DNA from: Candidatus Altimarinota bacterium | GTDB taxonomy: Bacteria > Patescibacteriota > Gracilibacteria > Absconditabacterales > Absconditicoccaceae | Reading direction: 5' to 3' | Length of the DNA stretch: 43,591 nt | NCBI GenBank assembly: GCA_021734475.1 | Contig: JAIPIU010000002.1 | Location: 1 to 43,591, forward strand | In this document: in pieces, positions 12,238 to 42,810 of the stretch | How the letters are laid out: each line of letters opens with the position of its first letter | How positions within the stretch are numbered: the stretch's first letter is position 1 | The notes under the pieces: generated by a model | What the model was told of the DNA's origin: nothing | What the model saw: only the letters and a program-made list of their open reading frames with translations | The model's database searches: none | Translations under genes and position numbers: made by a program

Positions 12238-12266
12238 TTGCTTTTTTTTATCAAAAAATATATAAT
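12238..12266 (+). promoter_or_regulatory. Promoter of the thrS leader
   Basis: TTGCTT, a 17-base spacer, then a perfect TATAAT at 12261-12266. It would start a transcript about 28 bases before the leader peptide ATG. Confidence 0.6.
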
Positions 12267-12300: not shown

Positions 12301-12354
12301 ATGAAAAAAACTACTCTAACTACGACTATTACGACAACAACCAAAGTCTGGTAG
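12301..12354 (+). CDS. Threonine-rich leader peptide controlling thrS
   Basis: ATG to TAG encodes the 17-residue peptide MKKTTLTTTITTTTKVW, with nine threonines read from all four ACN codons. It has the classical form of an amino-acid operon leader (compare E. coli ThrL) and lies upstream of threonyl-tRNA synthetase, between a good promoter and a terminator. Scarce Thr-tRNA would stall the ribosome on the ACN run. The TAG stop overlaps the first strand of the antiterminator, as expected for attenuation. Confidence 0.85.
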   Translation: MKKTTLTTTITTTTKVW

Positions 12355-12420
12355 GAGTTTAACGTTAGAGAAAAACACAATCAAAACTCCTGCTAATAAA
12401 ACATAGAGGAGATTTTTTTT
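12353..12420 (+). promoter_or_regulatory. Transcription attenuator (antiterminator/terminator) of thrS
   Basis: Three segments can pair in two ways. AGGAGTTT (12353-12360) pairs with AAACTCCT (12384-12391) to form an antiterminator. Alternatively CTCCT (12387-12391) pairs with AGGAG (12407-12411) just before eight Ts (12413-12420) to form a terminator. A ribosome that reaches the leader stop codon (12352-12354) covers the first segment and allows termination. A ribosome stalled on threonine codons leaves it free and allows read-through into thrS. This is inference from base pairing alone. Confidence 0.8.
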
Positions 12421-12472
12421 ATTTACGTTTATACATCATTCCAGCTTACTTAGCAAATACCCACACCAAACT

Positions 12473-12588
12473 GTCATTCCGGTCTCATCGACAAAGTCTG
12501 CAACCGGAATCCAAGTGAAACGAGTCCCGCAATGGCGGGATACGACAATAATATCGATTCCGGCTGCAAAGCTTGGCGCCGGAATGAC
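12473..12588. repeat. Composite CATTCCGG inverted repeat
   Basis: Two hairpin arms in opposite orientation: GTCATTCCGG...CCGGAATC (12473-12511) and GATTCCGG...CCGGAATGAC (12556-12588), with a small GTCCCGC/GCGGGAT hairpin between. The whole is a large imperfect palindrome. The same architecture recurs at 29607..29711, and single arms occur at four other places. Located between the thrS attenuator and thrS. Confidence 0.8.
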
Positions 12589-12620
12589 AAAAAGATAACA
12601 TTTATTATTTAAAATACAAA

Positions 12621-14501
12621 ATGAATCAAGAAAACGAATTACTTAAACCACGTCATAGTTTAGCACATATACTTGCTCAAGCTACGCAAAGATCAGTTGA
12701 TCCACTAGCAAGACTCGGAATTTGACCAGCGATTGATAATTGATTTTATTATGACTTTATTTTTTCAGATGGAATAGAATTCAAAGAAGAAAATCTCAAA
12801 AACTTAACTAAAATAATGCAAAAAATCACAAAAGAAAACCAACCTTTCCATAGGATAGAAACAGATTATGATAAGGCAAAAGAAATTATAAAAATTATGT
12901 GAGAAGATTTTAAAATAGAATTGTTAGATGAATTCAAATCTCAATGAGAAACAGTATTTTCTTTTTATATCAACACCATTCCAACTGAAGCAAAAGATAG
13001 ATTACTCAAAGATGTGAAACCTTGATACCTAGAAAAATATTCCAAAATCAATGAATATTTACTAAGCATTGGAGCATTGCAACAATGAAACTTTGCAACG
13101 TTCATCGATATGTGTGAATGACCTCATCTAGAAAACTCAAAAGAAATTACTTCTGACTCATTTAAAGCAGACAAAATTGCTTGAGCATACTGGAGATGAA
13201 ATGAAAAAAATCCTATGATGACTAGAATTTATTGACTAGCTTTTGAAAACAAAGAACAACTCAAAGAATATCAAGCTATGATAGAAGAAGCAAAAAAAAG
13301 AGATCATAGAATACTAGGAAAAGCGCTTGGTATATATGCTTTTGATGAAGAAGTGTGACCGGGATTACCATTACGATTACCAAATTGAACCATCATAGCG
13401 GATCAGTTAGAAAATCTTGCAAAAAGAAAAGAAGAAGAACAATGATATATGAGGGTTCGTTCTCCTCATATTGCAAAACAAGAATTATATCTTAGATCAT
13501 GACATCTACCATATTACAAAGAATCCATGTTCCCTCCTATGGAAATGGATGGAGAAATATATTATCTCAAAGCTATGAATTGTCCTCATCATCACAAAAT
13601 TTATGGAGCAGAGCCAAAAAGTTACAAAGATTTACCAATTAGATTTGCAGAATATTGACACTGCTATAGATATGAAGATTCAGGATCATTATTTGGACTT
13701 ATGAGAGTAAGATCTATGGCTATGAATGATGCGCATATTTATTGTACAGAAGAACAATTTGAAGAAGAATTTATGAAAGTAATAGAATTATATTTATACT
13801 ACTTCAATCTATTTGGAATAGATAAATATCAAATGAGATTATCCAAACATAGCAAAGAATGACTAGGTAAAAAATATGTAGATAACGAAGCACTATGGAT
13901 AAAAACAGAAAATCAAATCAGAGATGTAATGACAAAAAACAATATACCATTTGTAGAAGCAGATAATGAATGAGCTTTTTATGGACCTAAAATCGATGTT
14001 CAAATCCGATCTGTAATAGGTAGAGAATTTACTCTTGCTACAAATCAAGTTGATTTCGCTGTACCAGAAAGATTCAATCTTGTTTACAAAGACAAAGATT
14101 GAACAGATAAAACACCTATCTGTATCCACAGAGCACCATTAAGTACTCATGAAAGATTTATTTGATTCCTATTGGAACATTATTCAGGGGCATTTCCATT
14201 ACGACTTGCATCTAAACAGATAAAAATCATTCCTGTTGCTGATGTATTCAACGACTATGCAGAAAAAATTAAAAATAAATTTAAAGAAAACTGATTTAGA
14301 ATCTCAGTAGATAATAGCGACGATAGCTTTTCCAAAAAGATCAGAAACTGAGAACTTATGAAAATTCCCTATCTAATAATAGTAGGTGAAAAGGAAGAGA
14401 AATGAAACAATCTATCTATCAGAGAATTCAAATCCAAGAAACAATATGAAATCTGAGTTAATGAATTTTTGAAACAATGCCAAGATGAAATAAATATTTA
14501 A
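12621..14501 (+). CDS. thrS: Threonyl-tRNA synthetase (no TGS domain)
   Basis: Charges tRNA-Thr. The 626-residue product starts directly at the editing-domain region ([10 protein letters not shown], the HxxxH zinc motif of the SAD fold) and lacks the N-terminal TGS domain usual in bacteria. The class II core follows: LYLRSGHLPYYKE..MF, the motif with [22 protein letters not shown] (motif 2) and [20 protein letters not shown] (motif 3), then the anticodon-binding domain (about residue 530 on). The ATG is the first of the open frame. Expression is probably controlled by the Thr leader and attenuator at 12301..12420. Confidence 0.96.
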
Positions 14502-19337: not shown

Positions 19338-19704
19338 ATAAACCCATAGCAATATATACGCCTGTAATTACAGCTGAAATACATACATTGATTAGGCAAC
19401 ACAAGGTCGAACAAAAATGGCGGATTGTGAGACCTAGACCTTTTGGATACTTTTGGGGCAATGCCAAAAGTATCTCGTCGTCTGGGGACGAAACCCCAGT
19501 AAGAATATCAATATATTTTAGATTCCGGTTGCAATGAATAACACCGGAATGACATAAAAAAAAAGCTGAGCTAATAAAGCCCAACTTCAAAGAAGTAATC
19601 TAGTCTAGAGTTAGATAATTTCTTTTTGCAAAAAGATTTTAACAAATCTTTTATGTTCTTATTTTAAACAAAAAAACTCATTTGTCAAATTTCACAAGAC
19701 TTTT
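19338..19704. other. Intergenic region with stacked hairpins, no gene seen
   Basis: I see no credible coding frame here. It holds an 11-bp perfect hairpin GATACTTTTGG/CCAAAAGTATC (19446-19474), a 6-bp hairpin CTGGGG/CCCCAG (19482-19499) and one arm of the CATTCCGG repeat (19521-19553). The base composition is richer in G+C than the surrounding genes, so the stretch may be an inserted non-coding element. Confidence 0.5.
19521..19553 (-). repeat. CATTCCGG repeat, single arm
   Basis: GATTCCGG...CCGGAATGAC with a 17-base interior, the right-arm form of the dispersed repeat at 12473..12588. Confidence 0.75.
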
Positions 19705-41149: not shown

Positions 41150-42274
41150 CTATAATAAATTCTTAAACACTTCTACACTATCTAAACTCTCCCAACTAAA
41201 CTCATCTCTTCCAAAATGCCCATAAGCAGCTGTTGCTTGAAAAATAGGTCTTTTAAGATCCAGTTTCTCTATAATTCATTTTGGACTAAGATCAAAATTC
41301 TTCTTTATTACATCAACTATTCTTTCTATATCTACTTTTTCTGTTCAGAAACAATCAAGATAAATACTCAATGGCTGTACCACTCATATAGCATATCATA
41401 ATTGAATTTCACATCTATCACAAACCTCACTTGCTACTATATTTTTTGCTAAATACCTAGCTATGTAAGCAGCGCTCCTATCTACCTTACTAGGATCTTT
41501 TCCACTAAAAGCTCATCCACCATGCCTTCATATTCATCCATAAGTATCTACAATTATTTTTCTTCATGTGAGTCATGTATCTCCAGCCGGTCATCAAATA
41601 TGAAAATTACCAGTAGGGTTTATAAAATATTTTGTATTTTCATCTACCATACTTCCAACTATTGGATTGATTACAAATTCTTTGATATCTTCTCTAAGTT
41701 TTTCTTGAGTCACTTTATCACTATGCTGACTAGAAACCACTATAGTATCGATTCTCACAAATTTATTCCCATCATATTCGACTGTTACCTGCGTTTTTCC
41801 ATCAGGCCAAATATAATCAAGAGTTCAGTCTTTTCTTACTTTTGCTAATTGTCTAGCTAATTTATGTGCAAGATCTATTGTAATGGGTAAATATGAGTCT
41901 GTTTCATTTGTCGCATATCCATACATAATTCATTGGTCTCCAGCTCATCAGGTATCTACTCACATAGCTATATCAGGAGATTGTTTGTGAAGTAATATTT
42001 GGACATCACATTTTTCCCCGTCAAAAAATTTTTCCTCACTATCATATCATATATGTACAATAGTATCTCTTATAACTTTTTCAAAATCTACATTTGCAGT
42101 AGTTGTAATCTCTCAAGATACAATCGCCTTTCAAGTAGTAAGTAAAGATTCACACGCAACTCTAGAATTAGGATCTTGAGCTAAACATGCATCCAAAACT
42201 GAATCTGAAATCTGATCACACATTTTGTCAGGATGTCCTTCCGTCACAGATTCACTAGTAATAAAATGTTTCAT
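41150..42274 (-). CDS. metK: S-adenosylmethionine synthetase
   Basis: Makes SAM from methionine and ATP. The 374-residue product has the opening [20 protein letters not shown], the hexapeptide GAGDQGIMYGYA, the signature [19 protein letters not shown] and [23 protein letters not shown]. It starts with the ATG at 42274 and stops at TAG. It lies downstream of a SAM-I riboswitch with a terminator, so it is turned off when SAM is plentiful. Confidence 0.97.
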
Positions 42275-42420: not shown

Positions 42421-42444
42421 CTCAAACAAAGAAAATTTCTGTTT

Positions 42445-42538
42445 AATATCTTTCCCATAAGGGTAGGAATTAGCACCGTACAAAAGTCGGTTGCTGGAAC
42501 GCATAACGAGCCTATTCTCTATCGTTCCTCTTGATATT
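42445..42538 (-). promoter_or_regulatory. SAM-I (S-box) riboswitch
   Basis: Minus-strand aptamer upstream of metK. It has the S-box consensus ATCAAGAGGAACG at the start, CAGCAACCG in the middle and GGTGCTAATTCC near the 3' side, with P1 formed by AATATC and GATATT. S-box aptamers bind SAM and let the downstream terminator (42394..42420) form. Confidence 0.9.
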
Positions 42539-42548
42539 GTAAATACAC

Positions 42549-42736: not shown

Positions 42737-42810
42737 GCGGATATGATGTAATTGGTGTAGCATAGCAGACTTCAGCTCTGTTCGTACGGGTTCGAGTCCC
42801 GTTATCCGCT
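42737..42810 (+). tRNA. tRNA-Gly with anticodon UCA, reads UGA
   Basis: A complete cloverleaf: acceptor GCGGATA/TATCCGC, a short D stem, anticodon stem GCAGA/TCTGT with loop CTTCAGC (anticodon TCA at 42772-42774), and T arm ACGGG/CCCGT. Identity marks for glycyl-tRNA synthetase are present: G1-C72, C2-G71, the middle anticodon base C35 and discriminator U73. This is the tRNA that inserts glycine at UGA. CCA is not encoded. Variable loop of 4 bases. Confidence 0.95.

Follow-up and report, generated by a model that had tools for sequence, protein, structure and literature searches.

The threonine-tRNA ligase gene thrS of the window, by which we mean the whole 43,591-nucleotide stretch of DNA analysed here (contig 4, bases 1–43591, of a 1.17-Mb genome that reads TGA as glycine), is very probably controlled by a ribosome-mediated transcription attenuator. 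A threonine-rich leader peptide is encoded 320 bases before thrS, and downstream the RNA can form either of two mutually exclusive hairpins, an antiterminator and a terminator with a U-run (Table 1). Judged from sequence comparison, which gives it good support, this is a known kind of attenuator, ribosome-mediated and placed before a synthetase gene, in a lineage where it was not expected: named near relatives of the source genome are labelled candidate division SR1 and Patescibacteria. Attenuation is the simplest reading; autogenous control by the synthetase, a plain terminator and a decayed switch, each weighed below, explain less.

Table 1. Features of the thrS leader region, with window coordinates
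Feature	Position	Strand	Details and evidence
Candidate sigma-70 type promoter of leader transcript	12238-12266	+	TTGCTT (12238-12243), 17 nt, TATAAT (12261-12266); by eye
Leader peptide ORF	12301-12354	+	MKKTTLTTTITTTTKVW*, 17 residues, nine Thr codons; kept before thrS in relatives
Segment 1, protector stem 5' arm	12314-12320	+	CTCTAAC, in leader codons; folds; helix covaries in relatives
Segment 2, antiterminator 5' arm	12349-12360	+	TGGTAGGAGTTT, overlaps TAG stop; folds, pairing statistics
Protector stem 3' arm	12364-12370	+	GTTAGAG, in spacer just after segment 2; folds, covariation
Segment 3, common to antiterminator and terminator	12384-12395	+	AAACTCCTGCTA; folds, pairing statistics
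Terminator hairpin (segments 3 and 4)	12383-12420	+	T8 run at 12413-12420; folds, pairing statistics
Repeat element between terminator and thrS, outside the switch	12472-12589		118 bp, 11-bp terminal inverted repeats TGTCATTCCGG
thrS, threonine-tRNA ligase, controlled gene	12621-14501	+	626 aa, 23 TGA codons as Gly; TIGR00418, 603 bits against a cut-off of 384

The leader ORF translates as M K K T T L T T T I T T T T K V W stop, with threonine codons ACT (four), ACG (two), ACA (two) and ACC (one) and a TAG stop at 12352–12354. Threonine thus occupies 9 of 17 positions in an ORF 5′ of thrS, as the cognate codon should in a ribosome-mediated attenuator, and this is the sole threonine-rich ORF among the 683 ATG ORFs of 10–35 codons in the window. 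No clear Shine-Dalgarno sequence was found for it. The candidate promoter has a poor TTGCTT hexamer and was absent from the output of the consensus scan; relatives have a comparable CTTG(C/T)...TA-rich arrangement at the equivalent position.

The antiterminator, formed by segments 2 and 3 (2:3), is a 12-bp helix (−14.1 kcal/mol, z = −3.05) matched by 0 of 200 shuffles, and the terminator (3:4) pairs AAAACTCCT with AGGAG-A-TTTT, with an inner CTA/TAG (12383–12416), at about −8 kcal/mol. On its own the window terminator is a weak one, at a P of about 0.07 relative to shuffles, and was not picked up by the consensus terminator scan; jointly, the two helices are better than 300 of 300 shuffles. 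Leader RNA cut before segment 4 folds as 2:3 (−15.6 kcal/mol, z = −2.28), and the whole leader is most stable as the terminator plus a further stem between the leader codons and the region near the antiterminator arm (minimum free energy −23.0 kcal/mol, z = −3.78; 0 of 200 shuffles as good). Lying across 2:3 yet leaving 3:4 able to form, this further stem would serve as a protector stem, and through it termination is the predicted default fold. The TAG stop lies inside segment 2, where a ribosome would mask the antiterminator arm. By position, and with the footprint size taken from general knowledge, a ribosome on the last threonine codon (12340–12342) would free the AGGAGTTT core of segment 2 and a ribosome at the stop would cover that core. 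The original prediction of a 17-residue peptide with nine threonines before thrS, a TAG stop on the antiterminator and exclusive pairing of antiterminator and terminator-T8 is thus borne out by the ORF, the folds and the shuffles. It had called the attenuator complete; the parts that it listed are present, but it had missed the protector stem, as well as the repeat-bearing stretch of about 200 bases before the thrS ATG.

From this arrangement we infer termination, stalling and a threonine response. RNA polymerase would transcribe the leader while a ribosome translates the threonine-rich peptide. With ample charged Thr-tRNA, the ribosome would reach the TAG and cover segment 2, segments 3 and 4 would pair, and transcription would stop at the T8 run. 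With charged Thr-tRNA scarce, the ribosome would stall on the threonine codons and open the protector stem, leaving segment 2 free to pair with segment 3, which would block the terminator and let thrS be transcribed. If the leader carried no ribosome, the protector stem would form and the transcript would terminate by default. Such an attenuator would imply that these cells, which can hardly be cultured, couple transcription tightly to translation and have functional intrinsic termination.

The thr operon leader (thrL, Rfam RF00506, Thr_leader) is alike in its threonine-rich peptide and its protector, antiterminator and terminator logic. It controls threonine biosynthesis genes and carries isoleucine codons too, whereas no threonine synthase gene (thrC) was detected in the source genome by a search that was positive in 14 of 14 control genomes. 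When the threshold was relaxed, RF00506 alone among Rfam families matched (12309–12419, 21.6 bits, E = 0.1); since this score is below the gathering threshold of 55 bits, the window leader is not a member of that family. No Rfam family matched the leader at its gathering threshold, and a T-box riboswitch was rejected: neither the gathering threshold nor a cut-off of E = 5 gave a T-box match. Given the lack of a T-box and the sub-threshold Thr_leader match, the window element would so function like the thr operon leader without belonging to RF00506.

Among synthetase genes, E. coli pheST is controlled by the pheM leader attenuator. As in the thrS leader, a cognate leader peptide and exclusive hairpins control synthetase transcription; pheST differs in amino acid (phenylalanine) and in coming from Gammaproteobacteria. 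It is cited among attenuated synthetase genes in PMC1262725, which also describes trpS and leuS attenuators in Streptomyces, and histidine leader peptides precede hisS paralogues and hisZ in bacilli (PMC2965389). These Streptomyces and bacillar leaders are likewise cognate and placed before synthetase genes outside Proteobacteria, but for other amino acids and in other phyla. Known leader-peptide attenuators come chiefly from Proteobacteria, Actinobacteria and some Firmicutes (PMC2965389, PMC1262725), and attenuation of aminoacyl-tRNA operons has been surveyed comparatively (Lopatovskaya 2010, as cited in PMC4833913). Only Streptomyces lividans proved relevant in our literature search for thrS leader-peptide attenuation: a thrL leader before thrS has been proposed there, on thin evidence (PMC8079986). 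It too encodes a threonine-bearing leader peptide, but has two threonines among its 18 residues, a single hairpin and no U-run, and its authors call termination unclear (PMC8079986). The claim that no case had been described is therefore too strong for thrS. For Patescibacteria, no leader-peptide report was found in a search that covered few subscription papers; its one hit was a genome report judged irrelevant.

thrS was found in 187 of 192 genomes, and the sequence upstream of it was examined in 42 genomes of the SR1 family. A threonine-rich ORF with an equivalent arrangement precedes thrS in 23 of these 42, usually about 130–180 bases before the thrS match, and one further leader (MKYSALSTTTTTTTGHIVW, in G003) was found at a contig end by a covariance model. 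As the leader is missing from about half of the SR1-family genomes, it is not essential. Elsewhere in the class, families f5, f7, f14, f15, f16 and f22 also include members with a threonine-rich leader before thrS, the f22 leader being a single and the least certain case. Segment sequences differ between families (in G160, for example, they are CGGAGGTCC, GGACCTCCGA and TCGGAGGTTTTTT), and in most non-SR1 leaders the peptide still ends with a stop on or next to segment 2, with segments 3 and 4 and the T-run following in that order. The original prediction had named loss of threonine codons or alternative pairing among relatives as a refutation; both are conserved despite divergence of the remaining leader. 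Among 80 named thrS loci (eight SR1-like, one Peribacteraceae and 71 from other lineages), the Peribacteraceae record (L121) also has a threonine-rich leader before thrS, and none was found at the 71 loci of other lineages (Bacteroidota, Chloroflexota, Poribacteria, Magasanikbacteria and others).

Short ORFs at other synthetase loci of the same genomes served as a control, and 2 of 9007 were threonine-rich. An amino-acid-blind search for the architecture, whose detector required a stop, segments 2 to 4 and a T-run and, being stricter than the first scan, missed some leaders, matched 18 genomes at thrS, 17 of them with a threonine-rich peptide. These results bear on the possibility that the hairpin is an ordinary constitutive terminator, or the ORF a product of chance, with no regulation, as the near-chance strength of the terminator alone (P of 0.07) would allow. 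This is extremely improbable: elsewhere about 2 ORFs in 9000 are threonine-rich, seven families show the arrangement in front of thrS, and the gene upstream of the leader, for anaerobic ribonucleotide reductase, lies on the opposite strand, so that the hairpin and T-run do not end an upstream gene of the + strand.

The joint strength of 2:3 and 3:4 reached P ≤ 0.01 in 22 of 26 leaders, which supports attenuation. Across a 23-sequence alignment, 88.4% of cells were paired in 2:3 and 87.5% in 3:4, against 28–58% when slid, and these helix counts err slightly on the pessimistic side, since segment 4 is displaced in some rows of the automatic MAFFT alignment. Changes in the two helices are mostly wobble, with little compensatory change in both, as expected where one arm serves two partners; shuffling the 3′ letters alone did not clearly set 2:3 and 3:4 apart. 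The protector stem covaries, with 32 cells altered on both sides, a number reached in 0 of 500 shuffles.

The 44 leaders have a mean of 7 threonines and use all four threonine codons, and the third-base G/C share of these codons tracks the GC content of the locus (r = 0.81), which indicates selection for the residue, threonine, and not for the DNA. No leader in the recoded families stops at TGA, a count that partly follows from the code used for ORF calling, and five in non-recoded families do. In-frame TGA codons occur inside the leaders of G042 and G181, both from recoded families, and such a leader is an independent sign of UGA read as sense. The wobble pattern is among the features that would go unexplained if ThrRS bound a tRNA-Thr-like fold of the leader, as in E. 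coli, and the ORF were incidental. Autogenous control of E. coli thrS has precedent in its favour (it is mentioned in PMC2965389), but here it would also leave the threonine-rich peptide and the stop on segment 2 unaccounted for, as well as the persistence of the peptide from family to family where the segment sequences change. In E. coli, moreover, the operator is translational and adjoins the start codon, whereas the window element lies about 200 bases off and ends in a T-run; we regard autogenous control as very unlikely.

Between the terminator and the thrS ATG (12621) lie about 200 bases, which hold the repeat element. At up to one mismatch, the window contains 9 occurrences of GTCATTCCGG where 0.5 would be expected, and the element is therefore probably a small mobile repeat; further window copies of its end sequence lie at 19544, 20989, 29607, 29702, 40976 and 42313. 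A second thrS promoter could lie within this stretch. The attenuator might accordingly work in relatives and have decayed here, once the repeat insertion at 12472–12589 had parted the leader from a thrS with its own promoter, and the window terminator is indeed weaker than those of some relatives and other SR1-family genomes have no leader. Yet all arms of the window leader are intact, and G001 and G035 retain intact leaders that lie 657 and 571 bases from thrS, which means that selection has not lapsed through distance alone; decay is accordingly a slim prospect beside a working attenuator. By eye, the stretch between leader and thrS in G001 (L002) and G035 (L040) ends in a NUDIX-like frame, and the switch may govern a two-gene operon there.

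A covariance model built from leaders including that of the window found the thrS leader as the only strong match in the source genome, with two weak matches (E = 0.04 and 0.07). Before pheS, hisS, ileS, leuS, serS and argS, the search for cognate leaders returned scattered ORFs only, and a conserved cognate pattern was absent. The valS gene of G020 (L336) is preceded by a valine-bearing leader, MKTNTLSVVVVN, in the same arrangement with exclusive hairpins and a T-run. Valine-bearing leaders before valS, arranged in this way, were also noticed by eye in the SR1-family genomes G027 (MKTSKLSVVI, L383) and G035 (MKNSNISVVI, L384), and G013 (L335) has a candidate valS leader ending SSVVVTL.

The thrS leader is a comparatively well-supported attenuator case in Patescibacteria, in small genomes without a detected threonine synthase. 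Through the leader, threonine starvation would become readable at the transcript level in metatranscriptomes. More tentatively, and with somewhat less than even confidence, we suggest that synthetase leader-peptide attenuation, of thrS across the class and of valS in some genera, is a standing and so far unreported form of amino-acid sensing in Patescibacteria. As these cells appear unable to make threonine, it would report how much threonine is supplied from outside and perhaps also the condition of a host or prey cell, and it may have been rebuilt in unrelated sequence in lineages both with and without recoded UGA.

Two further observations were made near the far end of the window. Another RNA control element, a SAM riboswitch (RF00162, 47 bits, 42443–42540, − strand), lies before metK (41150–42274, − strand). 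ARAGORN called a selenocysteine tRNA with anticodon TCA at 42737–42810 (+ strand); as the genome reads TGA as glycine, this is more likely a UGA-reading tRNA-Gly.
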